Below are positions 1 through 11,110 of a stretch of 11,110 nt of DNA, piece after piece (positions within the stretch are counted from its first letter, which is position 1; each line of letters opens with the position of its first letter). This DNA comes from Crocinitomix sp. (GTDB lineage: Bacteria; Bacteroidota; Bacteroidia; Flavobacteriales_D; Crocinitomicaceae). The notes beneath the pieces were generated by a model. The model had not been told where the DNA came from. It saw only the letters and a list, made by a program, of their open reading frames with translations, and did not search any database. The stretch covers positions 1 through 11,110 of the forward strand of contig JADZFJ010000247.1 in NCBI GenBank assembly GCA_020849935.1, in the 5' to 3' direction. The position numbers and the translations under genes are program-made.

Positions 1-1
1 A

Positions 2-223
2 GTAATAGGAAATTTAAGAGAATTTTTAAATTCACTTCATGGTATATTCTCTCTAAACAAAGAGAGGGAGTATAATTCTGAATATTTTGATATGACAAAT
101 TCGCTTAATAAAATGATGAAACAATCAGAGGACAAAAAAAGAATTAAATCTGATGTAAATGTCATCCTAAAAGATTTAGGTACCGCTACCAAAAAAGCCG
201 CTGAAAAGCATCCGAAACATTAA
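2..223 (+). CDS. C-terminal part of an unrecognised protein (5' end outside window)
   Basis: The frame is open from base 2 to the TAA at 221-223, giving 73 residues of a protein whose start lies before the window. I do not recognise the family. What is visible is a soluble, Lys-rich and Asn-rich, charged tail ending in KAAEKHPKH, with a likely helical stretch containing NSLNKMMKQ and no membrane segment. Its stop is 7 bp before the ATG of the small membrane-protein gene on the same strand, so the two are probably co-transcribed and may act together. The stretch is strongly AT-rich (the first 60 bases contain only 14 G or C), like the following gene and unlike the metH region. The coding call rests on frame openness, the tight spacing and a plausible residue mix. 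Confidence 0.55.
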   Translation, partial: VIGNLREFLNSLHGIFSLNKEREYNSEYFDMTNSLNKMMKQSEDKKRIKSDVNVILKDLGTATKKAAEKHPKH

Positions 224-230
224 TGAGTCA

Positions 231-686
231 ATGGCTAAAGGTACTAAAAAAACAACCCAAACTAAAGCTATTTCAAAGAATGGTGATTCAGCTGTTCAAC
301 GAATAGAAGATCATTTAGAATTTGATGATAGCTTGTTACCAACATCAGAAGAGTTAGAGAGATTAAAATTAATTGACCCGAAAATAATAGATTGGATTTT
401 AGAGGCAGCCAAAGATAAGCAGGATGCGCGCCATAACTGGAATGATAGAGTTATGGGATTAGCAGAAACAAATAGTGCCAGACATTATTATATTGATAAA
501 ATGACTATTCGAGCTGCTCTATTCATTACAATATTTATCACCGGGCTATCAGCTTTATTGATTTACTTTGATCAAATTATTACAGGTTCAGTGTTTGCTG
601 GTGTTGTTTTGATTTCGTGTGTTGGCATGTTTTTAAATTTTAGGACGAATAAGAAAAAAACACAAGAGGGTGTAAACGATAAATAA
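231..686 (+). CDS. Small two-helix membrane protein, DUF2335-like
   Basis: This is a 151-residue protein of unknown function. Residues 1-30 are basic and polar. Residues about 35-90 form a charged helical region with LLPTSEELERLKLIDPKIID followed by KQDARHNW. Two hydrophobic segments at about 92-113 and 117-137 look like transmembrane helices joined by a very short turn, and the tail (138-151) is Lys-rich and probably cytoplasmic. The order 'P-x-x-E-L, D/G-P, long helix with an R-H pair, two C-terminal helices' matches my recollection of DUF2335, a family of predicted membrane proteins often seen in phage-like or accessory regions; this is pattern recognition, not a search result. The ATG at 231 follows the upstream stop by 7 bp with no Shine-Dalgarno sequence, normal for Bacteroidota. 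It converges on the large secreted-protein gene, with only 51 bp between them. No enzymatic motif is visible. Confidence 0.75.
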   Translation: MAKGTKKTTQTKAISKNGDSAVQRIEDHLEFDDSLLPTSEELERLKLIDPKIIDWILEAAKDKQDARHNWNDRVMGLAETNSARHYYIDKMTIRAALFITIFITGLSALLIYFDQIITGSVFAGVVLISCVGMFLNFRTNKKKTQEGVNDK

Positions 687-737
687 TTCGCTTAATATCT
701 CCCAATTTCAAAATGAAATAAATTATTCGAATTAAGT

Positions 738-2396
738 TTAGAGCCAAATAAATTTGGTGGCATAAACAGGTACCTCTCCATCCAATACATTTATTAAATA
801 CATCCCACTAGAAAGTCCTGTTAAATCGATCGCGTTTTGTGTCGCACTTTTAGCCACCAAATCTCCTTGAAGCGAATAAATTTCATACGAGAGATTTAAA
901 GTTTCAACATCTTCTAAACTCACAATCGTCAAGGTTTCGTCCGCAGGATTGGCGATAATTCGATACAATTCTTCTTCTTCAGAATCCGTTTCTTCGGGTG
1001 CCATCATTGCGTAAATTCCCAAATCCAGAAAACTGGTATAGCGATACCACTGACAGCCAGAAATTTTTAAATCGCTCACCCCCGGCGCATCATCCGACGT
1101 GTATCCCATCAATCCATACATCCAGGTCTCCATCGCTGCGTCAATTTCATGGGTCATTAACCAAGGTCCCATGTGGTAGGCGCGTGAAGAAAAAATCGGC
1201 ATCACCGCCGGCATCCGATCCGACAAAGCAATGGCTCGAATGCGATTAGTGTGGTAATTATAAATACTGGTACCATCCCCATAAACATCCGAGGTTCGGT
1301 AATGATGCAATAAAATTCGATCTGTATTTTCCGCTAATTCAATTGCTTGAGAATCGGATAGATAACCCAAATAAATCTCACTGATGAGACCCATACTATG
1401 TGCTCTTGCATCGATCATAGCTAATTCATCGAGGTAAAAATTATAGGCGCCTGCATTGGTACAAGGATATCCATTCGGTGATAAATAATTATCGCAATAA
1501 TAGTCAAACACATCGCTTCCTGGACTTGTCCAAAATTCAAACTCTAAATTTAAAACATCAAATTTTCGAAACCAATTGTCCCCATAAAAACTATTAAACG
1601 TGGTGATTTTATCAAACGAAGCATCCTTTTCGCCCACCGCACCTACTTGAACAATGCCATAGTTTTTTTTGGCACGTTCGATAAAATGAGCCAATACGAT
1701 GGCTTCCGATGGCAAGGTTAAATCGTAGGTATGTTCGTGGATATAAGAGAGATTATAAAGTAATAAATAATTAAATCCATTCTCGTTGGCAAATTCTAAT
1801 AAGGCGGTTTCGGCGGCAGGATTTCCCAAGATATTTTTAAAATCATCGACATATAAACCATTTAAAGGTATTTTATCGAAATAAGCAATTGGTTCTGGGA
1901 CATATTCAAAAGCACCAGCATCTGGGGCACCTGCTAAATTTCTAAGTTGGTTAAGATGATCCAATGGAATTCCAGTTAAAATCCCCGAATTAATTCCCGG
2001 CGATTCATGGGTTAATTGGAAATTTTCTTCTCCTACATTTACAAAAACTTGCGCATCAATGGTCGAACTATAGATGTTATGATCGATTTGAAGCAAGGCA
2101 GTCGCCCCAGCATTTAAATAAGGCGCATGGAGTTCATCACTCAAAAATAACTCTGTTGGTTCGCAAAAAATATTGTTTTGAATTTTAGAAACCGAAGATA
2201 TTGAACCAGAATTTTCAATTTCGACGTTAAATGCGGCAGATGCTAAAACCGTATTGTGTTGGAAATTAAAACTATTTGGATAGGTGTCTCCCAAAGCTGT
2301 ATAACACGAAAGTTGCGCCGCACCAGCACCTATGGCGCCATTTTTATAAAAAATGGAGTTCACCACGTTTAAATGACCATCGCCATGCCACACCAC
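738..2396 (-). CDS. 3' part of the interrupted gene: beta-helix end, barrel-like domain, T9SS sorting domain (552 codons)
   Basis: This is the in-frame continuation after the TAG; the GTG at 2396 is only a nominal start and no signal peptide precedes it. In local numbering, residues 1-165 finish the beta-helix and end with SPGINSG and GAPDAGAFEY, the usual terminal coil of bacterial beta-helix surface proteins. Residues 170-465 form a separate domain with alternating hydrophobic strands and helices (GLYVDDFKNIL, FNYLLLYNL, YGIVQVGAVGE, VLNLEFEFW, LISEIYLGYL, DRILLHHYR, PAVMPIFSS). This resembles a TIM-barrel glycosidase-like fold with candidate acidic residues E285/E287 and E340; no named family is assigned. 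Residues 478-552 form a T9SS type A sorting domain: IANPADETLTI, YEIYSLQGDLV, IDLTGLSSGMYLINV and a terminal strand ATKFIWL. The protein would normally be exported through the outer membrane and attached to the cell surface or released. Confidence 0.7.
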   Translation of the reverse strand: MVWHGDGHLNVVNSIFYKNGAIGAGAAQLSCYTALGDTYPNSFNFQHNTVLASAAFNVEIENSGSISSVSKIQNNIFCEPTELFLSDELHAPYLNAGATALLQIDHNIYSSTIDAQVFVNVGEENFQLTHESPGINSGILTGIPLDHLNQLRNLAGAPDAGAFEYVPEPIAYFDKIPLNGLYVDDFKNILGNPAAETALLEFANENGFNYLLLYNLSYIHEHTYDLTLPSEAIVLAHFIERAKKNYGIVQVGAVGEKDASFDKITTFNSFYGDNWFRKFDVLNLEFEFWTSPGSDVFDYYCDNYLSPNGYPCTNAGAYNFYLDELAMIDARAHSMGLISEIYLGYLSDSQAIELAENTDRILLHHYRTSDVYGDGTSIYNYHTNRIRAIALSDRMPAVMPIFSSRAYHMGPWLMTHEIDAAMETWMYGLMGYTSDDAPGVSDLKISGCQWYRYTSFLDLGIYAMMAPEETDSEEEELYRIIANPADETLTIVSLEDVETLNLSYEIYSLQGDLVAKSATQNAIDLTGLSSGMYLINVLDGEVPVYATKFIWL

Positions 2397-2399
2397 ACC

Positions 2400-3203
2400 C
2401 TACAGATCTGTATTGCTAATTTTATTGGAACTCAAACTCACCTGTCCACCTCGCCCAATTTCAATCCCATTTGCAGTAATTTGGTCGATGATGTTATCTT
2501 CAACAATTCCCTGCATCAAATACAATTCGAGCCCATTGCCGGGCGAAATCGAATGGATTGAACTCTTTGAAATCACAACATCCTCCACCGAATAAGGATA
2601 AAGCATGTCACAAAGGTCATTGTATTGTCCAACCAAATAATTCGGATGCCCAATTTGAATCCCTGTTTCACAATGGTGAACATTTAACTCCGTAAGATCA
2701 ATCGATTTTAATAAAAACACCCCTTCATTTGCACTCAAATCACAGCGTGGCTCATCAAAAACTTGCAAACCAACCCCATGTACATTTTCAATTTCTACCT
2801 GATCCACTTCAAAATGGTGCGACAAATCATTAATTAACAAACCTACTTCACTTCCCCCATCAATATGAATTCCGAATGGTACATCCGCATCGCCCGATCC
2901 TGTTAAGTGGAAAAAATAAGAATTTCCAATCATCAAGGTTTGTGCAGCTGGTTCACCTTCCATAATCACCTCTCCCCCACAATTCTTGATAATAATTGGA
3001 TCAGACGTTGACCCATACACATTTTTGATTTTTAAAGCCGAACGGGTGCCAGCCGTGATACAAATCACTTCACCAGGCAAGACACCTTCTCCGTTAAAAT
3101 AATTCATTTCCGGTGAGATGACATGATCGCATCCACAATCCTGCGCAAATCCTTTATTAAAAATCACTGAAAATAACACTACCAAAAGACTAATTTTTTT
3201 CAT
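2400..3203 (-). CDS. 5' part of the interrupted gene: signal peptide and beta-helix start (267 aa)
   Basis: The ATG at 3203 begins a clear Sec signal peptide, with MKK, a hydrophobic core LLVVLFSVIF and a probable cleavage after GFAQ. The mature start DCGCDHVISP is Cys-rich, and the region contains ITAGTRSALKIKNVYGS, common in Bacteroidota beta-helix proteins where the first coil is described as an unbearable or precious state. Repeated short strands follow, with patterns such as IIIKNCGG, GLLIND, VEIENVHGVGLQVFD, LNVHHCETGIQIG and ISKSSIHSISPGNGLEL. These are typical of right-handed parallel beta-helix coils of about 22-28 residues. The reading ends at ISNTDL then TAG. The next sense codons (Gly-Val-Val-Trp-His) continue the same helix pattern, so this stop lies inside a coil and not at a domain boundary. 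Confidence 0.7.
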   Translation of the reverse strand: MKKISLLVVLFSVIFNKGFAQDCGCDHVISPEMNYFNGEGVLPGEVICITAGTRSALKIKNVYGSTSDPIIIKNCGGEVIMEGEPAAQTLMIGNSYFFHLTGSGDADVPFGIHIDGGSEVGLLINDLSHHFEVDQVEIENVHGVGLQVFDEPRCDLSANEGVFLLKSIDLTELNVHHCETGIQIGHPNYLVGQYNDLCDMLYPYSVEDVVISKSSIHSISPGNGLELYLMQGIVEDNIIDQITANGIEIGRGGQVSLSSNKISNTDL

Positions 3204-3464
3204 ACGAGCAGATTTTAGTTGGTAAATATTTCAATAGCAATCAAACAAGAGCAACGGAAATTTTGTGAAGTTCGCGAGGTTTCATTTTTTTTCCGTTTTG
3301 AAGCAAATTATGGAAATTTTCAACCCGAAACAATATATTTTGGCGGATTCTCAAGAATATTCGACCAAAATCGATAATACGTTCGACCGACCCGATTTAT
3401 TGATAGAGCGAAGCGCTTTTTTGCTCAAAATGAAGTTTTTTTTTGTGAAACCTTGTCAAATAAT
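3204..3464. other. Divergent intergenic region upstream of the metH promoter
   Basis: This is about 260 bp between the divergent secreted-protein gene and the metH promoter. I see no convincing gene. A 74-codon frame at 3265-3489 begins with GTG, has an unconvincing composition and runs into the metH promoter. The region holds two copies of TTCGACC (3360-3366 and 3382-3388) spaced 22 bp, about two helical turns, and a terminator-like hairpin at 3405-3422. I could not find a good TAnnTTTG box for the minus-strand gene. Confidence 0.5.
3405..3422 (+). terminator. Terminator-like hairpin with T-run, no obvious upstream gene
   Basis: AGAGCG (3405-3410) can pair with CGCTTT (3414-3419), six pairs including one G-U, around the loop AAG, and the T-run extends to 3422. 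The shape is that of a short intrinsic terminator on the plus strand. There is no plus-strand gene upstream for it to end, so it may close an unannotated short transcript, insulate the metH promoter, or be chance. Confidence 0.25.
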
Positions 3465-3494
3465 TTGGAAATTCAAAGATTCAACGTAAATTTG
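3465..3494 (+). promoter_or_regulatory. Bacteroidota-type promoter for the metH operon
   Basis: TTG (3465-3467) and TAAATTTG (3487-3494) are separated by 19 bp. The second box matches the Bacteroidota -7 consensus TAnnTTTG exactly, and the spacing is the usual one for the primary sigma factor of this phylum. Transcription would begin around 3500, about 20 nt before the riboswitch, giving a leader of about 180 nt before the metH start codon. Confidence 0.75.
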
Positions 3495-3518
3495 CAGCAG
3501 TTCTTAATTTATTAATGT

Positions 3519-3624
3519 ACTTATACAGAAAGGTGGAGGGACCGGCCCTTTGAAACCTTGGCAACCGAACTCGTCATGGGGATAAGGTGCCAATTCCTGA
3601 TTAACAATGTTAATCACTATAAGT
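3519..3624 (+). promoter_or_regulatory. SAM-I (S-box) riboswitch
   Basis: The conserved core and all four helices are visible. P1 is ACTTATA (3519-3525) with TATAAGT (3618-3624). P2 is AAGG (3530-3533) with CCTT (3556-3559), plus GGG (3538-3540) with CCC (3546-3548). P3 is GGC and ACC (3560-3562, 3564-3566) with GGT and GCC (3586-3591). P4 is a perfect 8-bp stem TGATTAAC (3598-3605) with GTTAATCA (3609-3616) and an AAT loop. The hallmark stretches GGTGGAGGGA, TGAAACC, GGCAACC and GGTGCCAATTCCTG are intact. The family binds S-adenosylmethionine and normally lowers expression of methionine and SAM biosynthesis genes when SAM is plentiful. Its position directly before the split metH operon fits that role. 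Confidence 0.95.
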
Positions 3625-3654
3625 TTTCAAATCGCTTCTTTCGAGAATTTCCGG

Positions 3655-3687
3655 TCAACTTACTTTTCATTCAACTTATGAATGAGA
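3655..3687 (+). promoter_or_regulatory. Possible riboswitch expression platform overlapping the metH start codon
   Basis: TCAACTTA occurs twice, at 3655-3662 and 3671-3678; the second copy includes the A of the ATG at 3678. Both can pair with TAAGTT at 3620-3625, mostly the 3' strand of riboswitch helix P1, and the second pairing extends to seven bases (3619-3625 with 3673-3679). The start codon also lies in a local hairpin, 3665-3672 with 3680-3687 (eight pairs, one G-U), whose seven-base loop is AACTTAT. No intrinsic terminator with a T-run lies between the riboswitch and the ATG, so control of translation initiation is more plausible than attenuation. Which SAM state each pairing favours is not clear from the sequence. 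Confidence 0.4.
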
Positions 3688-4670
3688 TTAGAGAAATATT
3701 GAAAAAAAGAATTTTGATTCTGGATGGTGCCATGGGAACAATGATTCAACGGTACAAATTAGAAGAAAACGATTTTCGAAAAGGTTGGTTCGAGGATCAT
3801 CCTTATTCTTTAAAAGGTAATAACGATTTACTTGTATTAACTCGTCCAGATATTATTAAAGCAATTCATGCCGAATACTTGGAAGCGGGTGCGGATATTA
3901 TCGAAACCAATACCTTCAGTGGTACAACCATCGCCCAAGCCGATTATCACCTCGAAAAAAGTGCCTATGACATTAATTTCTATGGTGCAAAAATTGCTCG
4001 TGAAGTTTGTAACGAGTTTACCAAAGCAAATCCAAATAAGCCAAGGTTTGTAGCAGGTTCTATCGGCCCGACAAACATGACGCTCTCCATTTCACCAGAC
4101 GTTAATGACCCTGGATTTAGAAGCACGACTTTTGATAAAATGGTGGTGGCCTATTCCGAACAAGTAACAGGACTAATTAAAGGTGGTTCAGACATCCTTT
4201 TAGTGGAAACGATTTTTGACACTTTAAATGCAAAAGCGGCACTTTTTGCGATTGAAAATGTTCAAAAAGAACTTGGTACCGATCTTCCGATCATGGTTTC
4301 TGGTACCATTACCGATGCCAGTGGACGAACCTTGTCAGGTCAAACTACCGAAGCGTTTTTGATCTCCGTGCAACACATGAACCTCTTAACAATTGGTTTA
4401 AATTGTGCGTTGGGTGCAAGTGCTTTGCGTCCTTATTTACAAGTTTTAAAGAATAAAGCACCTTTTCATATTAGTGCACATCCAAATGCTGGTTTGCCAA
4501 ATGAAATGGGAGAATACGATGAAACGCCTGAAATGATGGCCGCTCAAATAAAAACATTTTTAGACGAAGGCTTGGTAAATATTATCGGTGGATGTTGTGG
4601 CACCACCCCCGCACATATAAAAGCAATGGCTGATTTGGTTGATTCCATGACCAATTCGCCAAAGAATTAA
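3678..4670 (+). CDS. metH: Methionine synthase, homocysteine-binding subunit (N-terminal half of MetH)
   Basis: This 330-residue protein matches the homocysteine S-methyltransferase module of cobalamin-dependent methionine synthase. It starts with [13 protein letters not shown] (13-24) and contains ADIIETNTF (72-80), [10 protein letters not shown] (124-133) and [10 protein letters not shown] (176-185). Three zinc-ligand cysteines, C243 (GLNCALGA) and C306/C307 (GGCCGTTP), bind the zinc that activates the homocysteine thiol. It lacks folate-binding, B12-binding and reactivation domains; these are on the protein encoded at 5202-7916. The two together (1,234 residues) equal one-piece MetH (E. 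coli about 1,227), so this is a split enzyme and not a truncation. The ATG at 3678 is chosen over an in-frame TTG at 3558 because the latter lies inside the riboswitch and its extra 40 residues have no counterpart in the family. The product acts in the cytoplasm and must dock with its partner to receive the methyl group. Confidence 0.95.
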
Positions 4671-4701
4671 TAAATAGCAGTATAAATTAAAAACAGAATA
4701 A

Positions 4702-5136
4702 ATGGCAAAATTGTATAAAGAAATCGATAAAACGATTTTAGTTTCTCTTCCAAATCCTACGAAAGAAGCGTATGAAATAAAAGTGAAAATTCCTGAATTT
4801 ACATTTTTGGGAGTAAACGAGCAACCTGACTTTGCAACGATTTATATCACCTTTTATCCAAAAGGAAAAATTATCGAGCTAAAGTCGCTAAAATTATATT
4901 CGTATCATTTAAGAAATATCATTGTTTCTTACGAGCGATTGATCAATATTTTTTACGATCACTTAATGGAAGCGTATGAGCCAGAACGTTTAAGAATCAT
5001 GATGGTGTGTAATCCACGAGGAGGAATTAGTTCCAAATTAACCATCGATTCGGATTGGGCTGCGCGTGGTGGACAAGAAAAATTTAATGATTGGAATGGA
5101 TTGGGAAGTGAAGAAAGCTGGAGCGTTTTAATGTAA
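4702..5136 (+). CDS. QueF-like T-fold protein lacking the catalytic Cys, in the metH operon
   Basis: This 144-residue protein is clearly related to QueF (NADPH-dependent 7-cyano-7-deazaguanine, preQ0, reductase). It has QPDFATIYITF (41-51), the QueF signature ELKSLKLY (59-66), LRN (70-72) and PRGGI (105-109). True QueF has a Cys a few residues before QPDF that forms a thioimide with the nitrile, plus a His-Glu pair. Here the Cys position is Gly37 (FTFLGVNEQ, also one residue shorter), the His is Tyr77 and the Glu is kept (E78). The Asp of PDF (D43) is retained. The only Cys, C103, lies just before PRGGI on another strand. About 18 N-terminal residues of the Bacillus-type enzyme are absent. 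Ordinary preQ0 reduction is therefore unlikely. It lies 31 bp after the first metH half and 65 bp before the second, under the same SAM riboswitch. Pterin or purine binding in support of MetH is possible but is inference. Confidence 0.85.
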   Translation: MAKLYKEIDKTILVSLPNPTKEAYEIKVKIPEFTFLGVNEQPDFATIYITFYPKGKIIELKSLKLYSYHLRNIIVSYERLINIFYDHLMEAYEPERLRIMMVCNPRGGISSKLTIDSDWAARGGQEKFNDWNGLGSEESWSVLM

Positions 5137-5201
5137 TTCTCCTACTCGGATTCAACCTAAGAGCACTTACCTATTGATTAAAAGCAAATTATCTTAAAAA
5201 A

Positions 5202-7916
5202 ATGAGTTTACATCCTGACTACAAAGGAAAATACAATTATAAATGGTCGAATTTGCCCAATTTAAAATTGAGCGGATTAGAACCTTTAGAAGTTACACCA
5301 ACCACCAATTTCGTGAATATTGGTGAACGAACCAATGTAGCGGGGTCGCGACTTTTTTTGCGGTTAATCAAAGAAGAAAAATTTGACGAAGCTTTATCGA
5401 TTGCGCGCGATCAAGTAGATGGCGGCGCACAAATCATTGACATCAACATGGACGATGGTTTGATTGATGGCAAAGAAGCAATGGTTAAATTTTTAAATTT
5501 AATTGCTGCCGAACCAGACATTTCCAAAATCCCCATCATGATCGATTCCTCTAAATGGGAAATCATTGAAGCAGGATTACAATGTGTACAAGGCAAATGC
5601 GTCGTAAACTCAATTAGTTTAAAAGAAGGTAAAGAAAAATTTGTTGAAGCAGCGCGTAAAATCAGACAATACGGTGCGGCGGTCGTAGTGATGGCCTTTG
5701 ACGAATTAGGACAAGCGGATTCGTACGAACGAAGAATCGAAATTTGTGAAACTTCGTATCGTATTTTGGTGGATGAGGTAAATTTTCCACCGCAAGACAT
5801 CATTTTTGATCCAAACGTTTTTCCTGTTGCCACAGGAATGGATGAGCATCGCCGAAATGCACTCGACTTTTTCCTTGCCACCCGATGGATTCGTGAAAAC
5901 CTTCCCGGGGCGCACATCAGCGGAGGAATCAGCAATGTGTCCTTTTCTTTCCGAGGAAATGATATCGTTCGGGAAGCGATGCACTCAGCCTTTTTATACC
6001 ATGCCATTAAAGAAGGTATGGACATGGGAATTGTAAATCCATCCATGTTGATGGTGTATGATGATATTCCAAAAGATTTATTGGCACATGTCGAAGATGT
6101 TTTATTGGATTTAAGAGAGGACGCCACCGAACGATTGTTAAATTTTGCTGAAACAGTTTCTGGAAATGGAAAAGTGCGGGTGGTCGATTTAGAATGGCGT
6201 AATACCAGTCTTCAAGAACGATTGACCTACTCCTTGGTAAAGGGTATGGCCGATTTTATTGACGACGATGTTGAAGAAGCTCGTAAATCCGTTAAAGAAC
6301 CCATCGAAGTCATTGAGGGTTATTTAATGACCGGAATGAACGTGGTTGGTGACCTTTTTGGAGAAGGAAAAATGTTCCTTCCTCAAGTGGTAAAATCGGC
6401 ACGGGTGATGAAAAAGGCGGTGGCGTATTTATTGCCCTACATCGAAGCATCAAAAACTGACAACCGTTCCAAAGGAAAAGTCTTAATGGCAACGGTAAAA
6501 GGAGATGTCCATGACATTGGTAAAAACATTGTCGCCGTTGTTTTGGGATGTAATAATTACGACATCATCGACTTAGGTGTCATGGTGCCAGCCAATAAAA
6601 TTTTAGAAGCAGCAGTCGAACATAAGGTAGATATCATTGGTTTAAGTGGATTGATTACTCCTTCGTTGGATGAAATGGTACACGTTGCCAAGGAAATGGA
6701 GTTGATGGGAATGACCATTCCATTGTTAATTGGAGGCGCAACAACTTCTAAAGTACACACGGCTGTAAAAATCGATCAGCATTACAAAAAAGGGCAAACG
6801 GTGTATGTCTTAGATGCTTCACGTTCGGTAACTGTGGTCAGCGATTTATTGGGTGAAAAAAGAGATCAATTTATCGAAGACATCAAAAACGAATATGAGG
6901 GCGTGCGTGTTAATTATGCCAAGAAAAAAGGATTCAAAAAATTCCTTTCTATCAACGAAGCACGGGCAAACAAATTTCAAATCGATTGGAAACCAAGTGA
7001 TTTACAAAAGCCAAACTTAGTAGGTGTAAAAGTTTTAGCCGATTATGATTTAGCCGAATTAAGAGAATATATTGATTGGACTCCTTTTTTCCACACCTGG
7101 GAATTACGCGGAAAATATCCGGAAATACTCACCCACGAATTAATGGGAATCGAAGCCTCCAAATTATTTAAAGATGCCAATACCATGTTGGATCAAATCA
7201 TCGCTGAAAAATGGCTCATTGCCAAAGCAAGTGTTGGAATTTGGCCAGCAAATACAATTAACGATGACGACATCGAAATTTACAGCGACGAAACTCGCTC
7301 AACTCTTTTGTACACCCAACGTGGATTGCGTCAACAATTGAAAAAAGCGGACACGGCCAGCAATGTCTGTCTAGCTGATTTTATTGCGCCAAAAGAAAGT
7401 GGATTTCAGGATTATATCGGCGGATTTGTGGTCACCACTGGTTTGGGAATTGAAAAAAAATTAGCCGAATTTGAAGCCGATCACGACGATTATCATTCGA
7501 TTTTACTAAAAGCCCTCGCCGATCGCCTCGCCGAAGCTTTTGCCGAACGTTTGCACGAATTGGTCCGAACAGATTATTGGGGCTACGATCAAACCCCTTT
7601 GGATAAAACCGAACTCATCCAAGAAAAATACCGCGGCATTCGTCCTGCCCCAGGCTATCCTGCAAATCCTGACCACACCGAAAAACCAGGTTTATTTGAA
7701 CTCTTAAATGCTACCGAATTAACGGGCGTAACCCTCACCGAATCTATGGCCATGATGCCAGCATCTTCGGTCAGTGGTTGGTATTTTGCCCATCCACAAG
7801 CACACTATTTTGGCGTGGGTAAAATTAAAGAAGATCAAGTTGAACGTCTTGCCATGGCAAAAGGAATTTCCTTGGCGCGCATGAAACAATGGTTGAGCAG
7901 TAATTTGGAAGATTAA
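5202..7916 (+). CDS. metH: Methionine synthase, folate/cobalamin/activation subunit (C-terminal part of MetH)
   Basis: This 904-residue protein carries the remaining MetH modules in canonical order. Residues about 35-295 are the pterin-binding barrel ([12 protein letters not shown] 39-50, DINMDDG 80-86, MIDSS 113-117, [13 protein letters not shown] 240-252), which takes the methyl group from 5-methyltetrahydrofolate. Residues about 325-415 are the four-helix cap. Residues about 425-560 are the cobalamin-binding domain with DxHxxG (D435, H437, G440), where His437 is the lower cobalt ligand, and LSGLITPS (481-488). Residues about 600-900 are the reactivation domain with the AdoMet-binding motif RPAPGYPA (814-821). 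It works with the homocysteine subunit encoded at 3678-4670 to make methionine, regenerating tetrahydrofolate. The N terminus contains only a short linker, confirming a natural split before the pterin domain. All key residues are present. The ATG at 5202 follows an A-rich run with no Shine-Dalgarno sequence. No metF follows it. Confidence 0.95.
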
Positions 7917-7994
7917 ATTGATAGTGGATTCAATCCCGATTTAATTCAGAAAAAAATCTCCTCGTCTTGATTAGACTTTAATCACCGCTGATGC

Positions 7995-8636
7995 TTAACA
8001 TCCGCAGTAAGAGGTCAAATGAAAATAACCTAGGCTGTCGGTAGTAATCGAATAATAACAACCCGCACCACCATCTAGTGGACTAAATTCTCTATGTTCT
8101 TCGTCCCAGCCATAATCTTCGATTGATTCAAAAGGTTCGTAATTTAACACCTGATCTATTACCTCAAAAAAGGCAGCCTCGTCTTTACATCGGGTCCATA
8201 ATTCAATACCACCACCCGATTCTAATTCTTCATAACAATAAAAAATACCCTGCTCAAACTCTTGACCCCACATCAACCCTCCAGGAGAATCAGTTGTTAG
8301 ATAAAATCGCTTTTCTGAAACTGTGTCTAGTGCGTGGTACAAATACAGATACAAATCGTCTAAGTATAAGCCATCAACGTTCGAATTGAGCGTACCTGAA
8401 ATACGCCCTTCAGTAAACGCTGATGTTGGTTGCGGCAAACATTGATCAAGACCTGTATAAGTAACGGGATAACTCGGAAATTCAACCAAATTGCCCGTAA
8501 TCCTTTCTGAACCAAATCTACCCTCTTGTGCAACCAACGTATCCTTGTTTTCCGCATGAGTGTCATTCACCAATAAATCAGTTTCGGATGAAGCGCAAGA
8601 AGCCAGAATTAAAAAAGAATAAAGAAAATTTTTCAT
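7995..8636 (-). CDS. Putative lipoprotein of unknown function with C-terminal Cys-Gly-Cys
   Basis: The ATG at 8636 gives 213 residues; an in-frame TTG two codons upstream is less likely. MKNFLYSFLILASC is a short lipoprotein signal peptide with lipobox L11-A12-S13-C14, so Cys14 should be lipidated and the protein held on the cell envelope. The mature part is acidic and has six more cysteines (C66, C134, C150, C193, C211, C213), enough for three disulfides, and ends in SYCGC. Aromatic-rich stretches such as GLYLDDLYLYLYH and RFYLTT suggest beta strands. I recognise no family and see no catalytic motif. It converges on metH and diverges from the photolyase gene, so it is probably a single-gene unit. 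Predicted secretion plus an even number of cysteines suits an oxidised, extracytoplasmic fold. Confidence 0.75.
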   Translation of the reverse strand: MKNFLYSFLILASCASSETDLLVNDTHAENKDTLVAQEGRFGSERITGNLVEFPSYPVTYTGLDQCLPQPTSAFTEGRISGTLNSNVDGLYLDDLYLYLYHALDTVSEKRFYLTTDSPGGLMWGQEFEQGIFYCYEELESGGGIELWTRCKDEAAFFEVIDQVLNYEPFESIEDYGWDEEHREFSPLDGGAGCYYSITTDSLGYFHLTSYCGC

Positions 8637-8735
8637 ATCCAAAAATAAGAATGTCTAGAACAAAACCGTACTATAAATTCGATTTTTTAAAACATTTCTT
8701 GTACTTTGCTGTTCTTACACAAAGCGTCCCTGCAA

Positions 8736-10043
8736 ATGAAAAAAACAACTTATTTTTGGTTTCGCCGCGACCTGCGATTAAACGATAATTCAGGACTTAA
8801 ACAGGCACTAAGAGCAAGTAAAAACGTTCAATTAGTATTCATCTTCGATGATACCATTTTGGCTGATCTTCCAAAAAACGATGCTCGGGTTACCTTTGTT
8901 TGGCAAGAATTAGAAAAAATCAACAAAGAACTGAAAGAATTTGACACCAACCTCCTTGTTTTAAAAGGAAAACCAATCGATGTTTGGAAAAAAATTCTCA
9001 CTGATTATCAACTCGAAGCGGTTTATACCAACCGCGATTACGAACCAAAAGCCCTTGCACGCGATGAGGAGGTTCGTTTTTTACTCGAATCAAACGGCAT
9101 CCAATTTAATACCTTTAAAGACCACGTTTTTTTTGAAAAAGATGAAATTCTAAAATTGGATGGAACACCTTATACCATCTATACCCCTTACAAAAATAAA
9201 TGGTTAGAAAAATACGCCAAAACCAATTTAGAAATTCCTAAACCGGAACTCGAATTAAACGCCAATTATGCTAAAAGCGACTTTACTTTTCCATCCTTGG
9301 CCGATATTGGGTTCGTAAAAAGCGACATCATCGCCCCAGCCTACAAATTGGCAGGTGTCGAAAATTATGATTTACACCGCGACTTTCCTGGAAAAGATCA
9401 CACCACCCATTTGGGGCACCATTTGCGTTTCGGCACCATCAGCATTCGCAGTTTAGTTTATTATTCCGCCCGAAAAAACGCCACCTTTCTTTCAGAAATT
9501 ATTTGGCGCGATTTCTTTTCACAAATCATGGGACATTTCCCGGATGCTATGAACGAGGCATTTAAGAAAAAATACAACCACATTCAATGGCGAAATAATG
9601 AATCGGAATTTAAAAAATGGTGCAACGGTGAAACAGGTTATCCAATTGTAGATGCAGGCATGCGCCAATTAAATCAAACCGGGTTTATGCACAACCGCGT
9701 GCGCATGATCACCGCAAGCTTTTTGGTCAAACATTTATTGATTGATTGGCGTTGGGGCGAGGCCTATTTCGCGGAAAAATTATTAGATTTTGATTTATCT
9801 GCCAACAACGGAAATTGGCAATGGGCCGCAGGAACAGGCTGCGATGCTGCCCCTTATTTTAGGGTGTTTAACCCATCCATTCAAGCGGAAAAATTCGATA
9901 AAAAACAAACCTATATTCGCCAGTGGATTCCTAATTTTGATCCATCTACCTATCTCCCACCAATGGTCGATCACGCCATGGCCCGCGACCGCGCCATAAA
10001 AACATACAAACAGGCATTGGACATGTTTCCTGTTAATGATTAG
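8736..10043 (+). CDS. phrB: Deoxyribodipyrimidine photolyase (class I CPD photolyase)
   Basis: This 435-residue flavoprotein uses blue light to split cyclobutane pyrimidine dimers in DNA. The N-terminal alpha/beta photolyase domain begins YFWFRRDLRLNDN (6-18), and the FAD-binding domain has EIIWRDF (254-260), NRVRM (320-324), IDWRWGEAY (336-344) and ANNGNWQWAAGTG (356-368). By comparison with E. coli PhrB, E254, W257, N320, M324 and W363 correspond to the CPD pocket. Met at 324 is typical of CPD and not (6-4) enzymes. W285, W338 and W361 form the electron-transfer chain, and N357 is the flavin N5 contact. Nothing appears missing, and it has no Cry-DASH features that I can see. The ATG at 8736 is preferred over an in-frame TTG at 8706, because the family starts just before the FRRDLRL motif. 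The TIGR01777 gene follows 52 bp later and may be co-transcribed. Confidence 0.95.
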   Translation: MKKTTYFWFRRDLRLNDNSGLKQALRASKNVQLVFIFDDTILADLPKNDARVTFVWQELEKINKELKEFDTNLLVLKGKPIDVWKKILTDYQLEAVYTNRDYEPKALARDEEVRFLLESNGIQFNTFKDHVFFEKDEILKLDGTPYTIYTPYKNKWLEKYAKTNLEIPKPELELNANYAKSDFTFPSLADIGFVKSDIIAPAYKLAGVENYDLHRDFPGKDHTTHLGHHLRFGTISIRSLVYYSARKNATFLSEIIWRDFFSQIMGHFPDAMNEAFKKKYNHIQWRNNESEFKKWCNGETGYPIVDAGMRQLNQTGFMHNRVRMITASFLVKHLLIDWRWGEAYFAEKLLDFDLSANNGNWQWAAGTGCDAAPYFRVFNPSIQAEKFDKKQTYIRQWIPNFDPSTYLPPMVDHAMARDRAIKTYKQALDMFPVND

Positions 10044-10095
10044 TTAAAAAAGCAAAAGGAGCCAGTTTCCTTCAATATTATTTATAATTTTCACC

Positions 10096-11025
10096 ATGGA
10101 AACAATTTTAATCACCGGCGGGTCGGGCATCATCGGCAGACGTTTAAGCGAATTACTCGTTCAACATCATTTTGCCGTGCGCCACTTGTCACGTAAATCA
10201 ACTGGCTCTGAAAAATACCCTACGTTTGTGTGGAATATCGATGAACAATTTATAGATCCTAAAGCACTGGAAGGAGTCGATCATATCATCCATTTGGCAG
10301 GCGAAAATGTGGGCGATGGCAGATGGACAGCCACGCGTCGAAAAAAAATCCTTTCTAGCCGAATTGACAGTGCTAACCTCATTTTAAACAAAATGAAGGG
10401 CCAACACCTCAAAAGTTTTATCAGTGCTTCGGGCATCAGTTATTATGGTTCCATCACGTCTAGCCAAATATTTAAAGAAACCGACCCCTGCGGCACCGAT
10501 TATTTAGCCAACGTAAGCGTACAATGGGAAAAAGCAGCCTTTCAATTTGAGGACATCGCCAAACGCGTGGTGGCTTTGCGAACAGGGGTTGTTTTAAGTC
10601 CAACGGGCGGCGCTTTGGCACAATTAATAAAACCCATTAAACTTGGCATTGGCTCTGCGCTCGGCTCGGGCAAACAATACATGCCTTGGTTGCATTTGGA
10701 GGATATGTGCCAAATCTACCTCAAAGCAATCACCGACGAGGGAATGGTAGGAATCTATAATGCAGCAAGTTCGGATCACCTCACCAATCAAGAAATGGTC
10801 AATGCCTTGGCAAAAAATTGTGGCAAAAAATTATGGGCACCAAAAGTTCCTGGTTTTCTTTTAAAACTCCTTTTTGGCGAAATGTCCGTCATCATTCTCG
10901 AAGGCAGCCGCGTGGATAACGATAAAATCAAAAAAGCCGGCTTCGTTTTTCAATACGATACGATCGATGAAGCCTTAAAATCACCTGTTTTCCGCACTGG
11001 GACACCCAATCTAAAATTCAAATAA
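10096..11025 (+). CDS. TIGR01777-family NAD(P)-binding epimerase-like protein (YfcH/SDR39U1 type)
   Basis: This is a 309-residue atypical short-chain dehydrogenase. The Rossmann nucleotide-binding motif TGGSGIIG is at residues 7-14 directly after the start. Further family marks are HLAGENVGDGRW (67-77), FISASGISYYG (108-118), LRTGVVLSPTGGAL (161-174), GSGKQYMPWLHLED (190-203) and YNAASSD (221-227). The C-terminal region from about 248 (WAPKVPGFLLKLLFGEMS) matches the DUF1731 domain that ends these proteins. Length is normal for the family. The substrate is not established for the family in general, although YfcH-like proteins bind NADP(H) and are often called sugar-nucleotide epimerases by homology. 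It lies 52 bp after the photolyase gene on the same strand with no clear promoter between, so an operon is likely. Its 3' end overlaps a likely minus-strand gene by 15 bp. Confidence 0.9.
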   Translation: METILITGGSGIIGRRLSELLVQHHFAVRHLSRKSTGSEKYPTFVWNIDEQFIDPKALEGVDHIIHLAGENVGDGRWTATRRKKILSSRIDSANLILNKMKGQHLKSFISASGISYYGSITSSQIFKETDPCGTDYLANVSVQWEKAAFQFEDIAKRVVALRTGVVLSPTGGALAQLIKPIKLGIGSALGSGKQYMPWLHLEDMCQIYLKAITDEGMVGIYNAASSDHLTNQEMVNALAKNCGKKLWAPKVPGFLLKLLFGEMSVIILEGSRVDNDKIKKAGFVFQYDTIDEALKSPVFRTGTPNLKFK

Positions 11026-11110
11026 TTTTTTCAGTTGTTTTTGTTCCTCATTTAGGATCAAAAGTTCTGTGTTTACAATGTTTGTAGTCGGGTTCTTTAT
11101 TTTAATGGCG
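11011..11110 (-). CDS. Possible 3' end of a converging minus-strand gene (partial)
   Basis: On the minus strand one frame is open from the window edge to a TAG at 11011-11013, giving about 32 residues: a KIKNPTTNIVNTELLILN stretch, then EEQKQLKKLFEF at the C terminus. The mix of charged and aliphatic residues looks like a helical protein tail, and the other two minus frames contain stops within the first 12 bases from the edge. It would overlap the end of the TIGR01777 gene tail-to-tail by 15 bp. The fragment is too short to identify, and chance openness in AT-rich DNA cannot be excluded. Confidence 0.4.
   Translation of the reverse strand, partial: AIKIKNPTTNIVNTELLILNEEQKQLKKLFEF

Follow-up and report, generated by a model that had tools for sequence, protein, structure and literature searches.

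A cysteine-less QueF-like protein as a candidate T-fold methylenetetrahydrofolate reductase in a riboswitch-led methionine synthase operon of Crocinitomix

The preQ0 reductase QueF uses its catalytic cysteine to convert a nitrile to a C=N bond that is open to hydride attack. In unimodular QueF, a T-fold protein (TIGR03139; B. subtilis structure 4F8B), the NADPH-binding residues lie in the motif E(S/L)K(S/A)hK(L/Y)(Y/F/W), and the authors of PMC5372742, in the part of that paper available to us, exclude sequences without the catalytic cysteine as non-QueF. The accessible text of PMC5485725 names an aspartate as general acid/base and describes the archaeal QueF-Like enzyme (archaeosine synthase, 5JYX), which keeps the thioimide-forming cysteine and makes archaeosine from preQ0-tRNA. 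The formation of 5-methyl-tetrahydrofolate (methyl-THF) from methylene-THF, a central step of one-carbon metabolism, belongs to a different fold: MetF, the flavin adenine dinucleotide (FAD)-dependent methylenetetrahydrofolate reductase (MTHFR; PF02219), is a (beta-alpha)8 barrel, and so, as a monomer, is the flavin-free mycobacterial Mfr (MSMEG_6596/6649; available text of PMC11094777). Here we analyse a QueF-like gene that lacks the cysteine and lies between the two parts of a split methionine synthase (MetH) in Crocinitomix sp.; it was found in an 11,110-nucleotide stretch, the window (assembly GCA_020849935.1, contig JADZFJ010000247.1, positions 1 to 11,110, forward strand).

This QueF-like protein is very probably a methylenetetrahydrofolate reductase on a QueF (T-fold) scaffold, which replaces MetF and feeds 5-methyl-THF to methionine synthase. 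We base this on its membership of a discrete clade that has lost the catalytic cysteine and kept the aspartate, the ring-anchoring glutamate and the core of the NADPH motif, on its complementarity with MetF in three samples of genomes, on one copy that stands in metF's chromosomal slot, on decayed metF genes in three carriers, and on neighbours that use methyl-folate. The gene and its diagnostic positions are:

4702..5136, + strand, Cys-less QueF-like protein, candidate methylenetetrahydrofolate reductase (144 amino acids, ATG start)
4810..4812, + strand, codon of Gly37, at the place of the QueF catalytic Cys (alignments)
4828..4830, + strand, codon of Asp43, equivalent to QueF Asp62 (alignments)
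4876..4899, + strand, ELKSLKLY, which fits the QueF motif with the NADPH-binding residues (sequence, and the motif as given in the available part of PMC5372742)
4930..4935, + strand, codons of Tyr77 and Glu78, the latter equivalent to QueF Glu97, the preQ0 anchor (alignments)

Pfam recognises QueF and no other family in the protein (PF14489, 62.1 bits, cut-off 27.3; single-domain), and its structural model is a unimodular T-fold. The NCBIfam preQ(1) synthase model TIGR03139 gives 85.6 bits, slightly below its cut-off of 86.9. Three QueF entries are the only solved chains that match (best E 4.3e-17; 5udg is B. subtilis QueF). The alignment to these chains sets Gly37 against Cys55 (Ala in the C55A entry), Asp43 against Asp62, Tyr77 against His96 and Glu78 against Glu97 (Gln in the E97Q entry). 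The protein has both acidic residues and the motif of QueF and lacks its catalytic cysteine. The loop that holds the cysteine is one residue shorter here, and the pairing of Gly with Cys therefore depends on the aligner (two alignments pair them, one does not); that the loop is free of cysteine is independent of this choice. An earlier note, made from the letters of the window, had described a Cys-less QueF-like protein with Gly37 for Cys between the halves of MetH, and with this reservation about the pairing the description was borne out. The note had also pointed to Tyr77 in place of the histidine. The alignment does pair the two, but as judged from the aligned sequences the exchange is not diagnostic, because the position holds His in just 20 of 52 canonical-type sequences and Tyr in 9 (Gln 11, Phe 10, Asn 2).

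The Cys-less QueF-like proteins are a discrete clade. Scanning one genome per species for homologues gave 33 named loci at 70-84% identity to the query; they come from Bacteroidota, from a single Fidelibacterota (Marinimicrobia) genome and from two Gammaproteobacteria (Aliikangiella, Kangiellaceae). Identity to the window protein is 70-75% for the Fidelibacterota and Gammaproteobacteria members of the scan and 56-61% for the deepest members. Profile A1, run over 295 genomes of the window's class, separated 17 matches at 252-282 bits from 23 at 25-67 bits, with none between, and none of these genomes had both a high- and a low-scoring match. Matches were found in 118 of 199 Fidelibacterota genomes, seven at 181-273 bits and the other 111 at no more than 74 bits. 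In a tree of 100 sequences, which leaves out L043, L045, L060, L061 and L083, one branch (100/100, length 1.84) separates the 49 Cys-less proteins from all the rest. Alignments A1 and A2 omit L061 (undetermined bases), L059 and L060, the last dropped for an internal stop: at L060:6001-6420 a stop codon breaks the QueF-like frame in Chitinophaga varians (G815), whose MetF match has no stops. All 37 plasmid records that match the protein are below 60% identity.

The 24 Cys-less loci read from the class and Fidelibacterota all have Gly at the Cys position and all keep Asp43, Glu59, Lys64 and Tyr77; five of these loci have Arg in place of Lys61, and Glu78 is kept in all but one, where it is unreadable. 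Over the larger comparison Asp43 is present in 53/53 Cys-less and 52/52 canonical-type sequences, and E59 and K64 do not vary in either group. Of the 53, 48 have Lys and 5 have Arg at position 61, and the residue after K64 differs between members of the clade. F35, Y52, S76, R79, Y85, R96 and D116 are among the residues fixed only in the Cys-less proteins. The clade shares with unimodular QueF the fold, the length, the core of the NADPH motif, Asp62, Glu97 and the PRGG motif, and differs from it in the cysteine, the shorter loop, these clade-specific residues and its gene neighbours. The Cys-free loop also sets it apart from archaeal QueF-Like. Set beside FolE, FolB and other pterin T-fold enzymes, the window protein has no FolE CEHH zinc motif and a single cysteine, C103. 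The earlier note had suggested chemistry with C103; since three deep members (L211, L213, L214) have Phe at this position, C103 is not a catalytic signature of the clade, and the suggestion falls.

Annotation would place most of the members tested in queuosine synthesis. Eight Cys-less members scored 83-98 bits with TIGR03139, six of them above 86.9, and such proteins would therefore be named preQ(1) synthase. These scores favour an enzyme of the queuosine pathway, either a preQ0 reductase or a relative with altered chemistry; the earlier note had named a SAM link through QueA in queuosine synthesis as its weaker alternative. We find such a role hardly credible. The catalytic cysteine is missing, and signs of preQ0 synthesis through QueC are nearly absent from the carriers of the family set. 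In the family set of 150 genomes (15 carriers of the Cys-less gene, 135 non-carriers), QueC (PF06508) passes the Pfam cut-off in 124, and among the matches listed only G019 and G060 (in two pieces) look full-length. Nearly all of the other matches listed are confined to the start of the model (mostly ending by about position 80 of 210) and reach no more than 35 bits, mostly in reading frames much longer than QueC (387-660 amino acids in carriers, where printed); these were discounted. Fourteen of the 15 carriers are therefore without a full-length-looking QueC, G060 being the exception, and the window's genome has partial matches only. The note's claim that this is no usual preQ0 reductase holds. 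It had also asked about a normal QueF in the same genome: each of the 15 family-set carriers has one PF14489 match only, and three of the seven Fidelibacterota carriers (G853, G870, G873) show, in addition to the Cys-less gene, another QueF match that scores lower. The second copy in G873 has a cysteine in the loop and scores 116 bits with TIGR03139, which also argues against a queuosine role for the Cys-less protein.

The loss of the cysteine fits the reduction of an iminium rather than a nitrile. We suggest that Glu78 holds the pterin ring in the way Glu97 holds preQ0, that Asp43 (or Glu78) would act as the acid in opening 5,10-methylene-THF to its N5=CH2 iminium, and that NAD(P)H bound at the QueF motif could then transfer hydride directly, with no flavin. 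As methylene-THF would already supply the iminium, the cysteine would be dispensable, and Gly in its place may make space for the larger substrate. Direct hydride transfer from NAD(P)H to methylene-THF is what this proposal has in common with Mfr. With MetF it shares the proposed reaction, the position in the pathway, a place in an operon with metH and, in one genome, a chromosomal site; sequence and fold are unrelated (Pfam shows QueF only, and the model is a T-fold rather than a barrel with FAD), and the QueF-like protein is less than half as long.

The strongest support comes from the distribution of MetF, scored as missing where PF02219 has no match, with no search made for Mfr-like enzymes in the carriers. 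MetF is missing from 12/15 carriers and 10/135 non-carriers in the family set, from 15/17 carriers and 23/278 others in the class set (295 genomes, some shared with the family set), and from 5/7 carriers and 14/73 others among the 80 of 199 Fidelibacterota genomes counted, a phylum set that lacks completeness values. Fisher p values are 1.4e-9, 3e-13 and 0.007 respectively, and ignore shared ancestry. For some of the 38 MetF-less class genomes (37 nameable), and for G125 and G143 of the family set, this status was read from gaps in the match list. In the window's own genus, all eight carriers of the family set are without MetF and the sole non-carrier, G047, has it. The MetF-less carriers of the class set span eight families (f1, probably Crocinitomicaceae, f62, f75, f76, f85, f101, f102 and f109). 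Only two carriers of this set have a PF02219 match, G741 and G729, which we take to be G801 and G809 on grounds that include identical match values; what G741 has (E 9.8e-25) is a remnant full of stops. Of the 32 genomes behind the named loci, a sample that overlaps the other sets, 19 have no MetF match, 10 a stop-free one and 3 remnants that contain stops. Replacement of MetF by the gene in genomes that rely on methyl-THF is thus a strong tendency with exceptions.

Gene order points the same way. Among 40 metF loci of non-carriers, lepA is the diverging neighbour in five (L168, L179, L192, L193, L204), as it is in G047, G026 and G055, but not G023, of four further metF loci. G772 (L193) reads lepA-metF-ribE, and by match ends the converging ribE lies less than 10 nt from metF. 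Carrier G563 (L162) has lepA-QueF-like-ribE in the same relative orientations, which places its QueF-like gene in metF's chromosomal slot; in 7/17 class and 4/33 named loci ribE lies no more than 104 nt from the QueF-like gene and converges on it. Three carriers hold stop-ridden metF remnants, and in G799 and G801 the remnants adjoin lepA (L146, L147) while the QueF-like gene is part of the metH operon (L043, L045). That operon is itself an occasional site of metF (5/40 non-carrier loci: L196, L200, L201, L205, L206). The QueF-like gene is found there in 15/15 family, 20/33 named and 3/17 class loci; its recurrence next to metH, a check proposed by the earlier note, holds in the family and is joined by other settings elsewhere.

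In the window the QueF-like frame begins 31 nt after the homocysteine S-methyltransferase gene and ends 65 nt ahead of the C-terminal part of MetH. The operon comprises, besides the gene itself:

3518..3625, + strand, S-adenosylmethionine (SAM) riboswitch (RF00162, 80.1 bits), which heads the operon
3678..4670, + strand, homocysteine S-methyltransferase, the separately encoded N-terminal MetH module (PF02574, 336 bits)
5202..7916, + strand, C-terminal part of MetH with methyl-folate, cobalamin and activation domains (PF00809, PF02607, PF02310, PF02965)

The product of 3678..4670 matches NCBIfam methionine synthase models at 504 and 528 bits, over the first quarter of the models. The riboswitch confirms the SAM-regulated operon of the earlier note, and 11 of the 12 metH-operon loci that were scanned have the element, the exception being L040 (one of the 11, L148, is a relative's operon that has no QueF-like gene). 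The riboswitch would tune the supply of methyl-folate to the demand for SAM.

Among its options the earlier note had suggested a protein that bridges the split MetH subunits. Taken more widely, as an accessory role in bridging or reactivating the two-part methionine synthase, this is favoured by the family loci: the C-terminal part lies downstream in 15/15 and a homocysteine methyltransferase match upstream in 14/15, the fifteenth (L011) beginning near the gene. We nevertheless regard it as very unlikely. Five carriers (G562, G563, G607, G631, G658) have a one-frame MetH of 1221-1238 amino acids, on a different contig from the QueF-like gene; MetH is split in the same way in G047, a non-carrier from the window's genus; the copy in L232 lies next to metE, whose product needs no cobalamin; the copy in G563 stands in metF's place; and neither bridging nor reactivation predicts the loss of MetF. 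The accessory-subunit idea should give way to that of a T-fold methylenetetrahydrofolate reductase.

Outside the metH operon some of the neighbours are informative. The Fidelibacterota locus L232 has the QueF-like gene overlapping metE by some 7 to 22 nt, according to which metE start codon is used, and in L228, L230 and L234 (and L229, by eye) it adjoins a Pterin_bind gene; neither neighbour was seen in L231 and L233, the remaining two of the seven loci. The Pterin_bind product of L234 is closest to methyl-THF:corrinoid methyltransferases (141 bits, below the model cut-off of 259). The common denominator of MetH, MetE and corrinoid-type methyltransferases is 5-methyl-THF. The note's thought that the protein could bind a folate or pterin is in this way supported as a link to folate and methionine, with the binding itself presumed. 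Neighbours were uninformative in 8/33 named and 7/17 class loci. Anaerophaga belongs among these: in its loci L057 and L059 the gene precedes rhodanese, TusA and AIRS-domain genes (by Pfam for L057, by eye for L059), which look like selenouridine synthase and selenophosphate synthase, an apparent selenium gene island.

Genomes with the gene should need methyl-THF, and MetH (PF02965) was found in 27/30 carriers of the family and class sets. Conversely, 32 genomes of these sets have neither MetF nor the QueF-like gene; of the 31 tested for MetH, 16 had no match and 15 had one, two of them fragments. In the subset at least 90% complete and at most 5% contaminated, MetH is missing from 12 of 15. 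Well-covered MetH-using genomes therefore usually have MetF or the QueF-like gene. The three exceptions, G671, G723 and G745, may be due to a further route to methyl-THF, to a MetF that has diverged or to a gap in the assembly. In genus g240 (G723, G745, G765, G783; L153, L154), as in G671 (L150), MetH was found and neither MetF nor the QueF-like gene. The three exceptions speak for a hitchhiker, that is, for some other reductase making methyl-THF in MetF-less carriers and a different role for the QueF-like protein. This too seems highly improbable: the gene occupies metF's slot in G563, its product is strongly conserved across phyla, and it keeps company with three kinds of genes that encode users of methyl-folate or proteins resembling them.

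Other observations weigh against the reductase proposal, as do those three genomes. Its basis is computational. Many of the genomes are incomplete draft metagenome assemblies (the window's own is 67.65% complete). MetH was not found in carriers G549, G683 and G754, and 12 further MetH-positive genomes have neither gene, all below 90% complete and two with MetH fragments only. No riboswitch of their own was found on QueF-like copies outside the metH operon (16/16 loci). Several carriers keep an apparently intact MetF: G023, G026 and G055 in the family set; G806 (Marinoscillum), G811 and G815 (Chitinophaga), G813 and G814 (Anaerophaga), G812 (Aliikangiella) and G818 (Kangiellaceae) among named genomes; and G870 and, weakly, G848 (70.9 bits) in Fidelibacterota. 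The gene is thus not always a replacement. G729/G809 (L136, contig C67) encodes an MTHFR of 575 amino acids with an MTHFR_C SAM-binding regulatory domain, a type that the available text of PMC13001107 describes for eukaryotic, not bacterial, MTHFR, and this MetF may be a contaminant or a foreign gene. PF02219 matches in the Fidelibacterota genomes G841 and G890 lie in frames of similar length (587-588 amino acids).

In Marinoscillum (L050) metF and the QueF-like gene even share an operon, which simple replacement does not require. Such carriers speak for a protein that is needed for 5-methyl-THF without being the whole enzyme, either because it works with an unrecognised partner or because it reduces another folate species whose product is then converted to methyl-THF. 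We consider this unlikely, though less so than the other alternatives. Inspection by eye of the loci with listed reading frames showed no second partner common to them, the copy in G563 stands in metF's place, and the retained core of the NADPH motif and anchoring glutamate could serve a stand-alone reductase.

Taken at its widest, the Cys-less clade probably adds a fourth class to the methylene-tetrahydropterin reductases, the only one so far that is not built as a (beta-alpha)8 barrel. It would be a flavin-free T-fold enzyme that arose within the nitrile-reductase family by loss of the nucleophile and took over from metF, apparently more than once, sometimes in place and sometimes within the methionine operon, across at least two phyla. 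We found no QueF relative acting on methyl-folate in the open PMC literature, which was covered with no preprints and few subscription papers. The replacement would be a clean, non-homologous one with a readable logic, as a nitrile reductase minus its nucleophile becomes an iminium reductase. It would explain how MetF-less Bacteroidota run MetH, and it would mean that in many marine and other bacteria MetF has been replaced by a protein that databases take for a tRNA-modification enzyme, whose name, preQ(1) synthase, would need correcting.

A search with PF14489 had suggested that carriers lack FolE, and hence that the QueF-like protein replaces it. This was dropped when a direct search found a FolE match in 15/15 carriers. 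Six aligned carrier copies keep the zinc active site, which we take to be CEHH ... H.C, as is visible in the FolE alignment; the window protein, with its one cysteine, has no such site. For each family-set carrier the best FolE match reaches an E value of about 1e-60 to 1e-63 (approximately 210-214 bits in the printed cases), and most non-carriers score about 250-267 bits. The carriers' type looks E. coli-like by eye. Non-carriers G020, G047 and G093 show the carriers' pattern, which may therefore be an effect of clade. The family set holds two FolE types (e.g. L094-L105), and some genomes have both. Elsewhere in the window, two open reading frames in line on the minus strand (738-3203), one a beta-helix part and the other a Por secretion tail part, resemble a single secreted-protein gene interrupted near 2396-2400.
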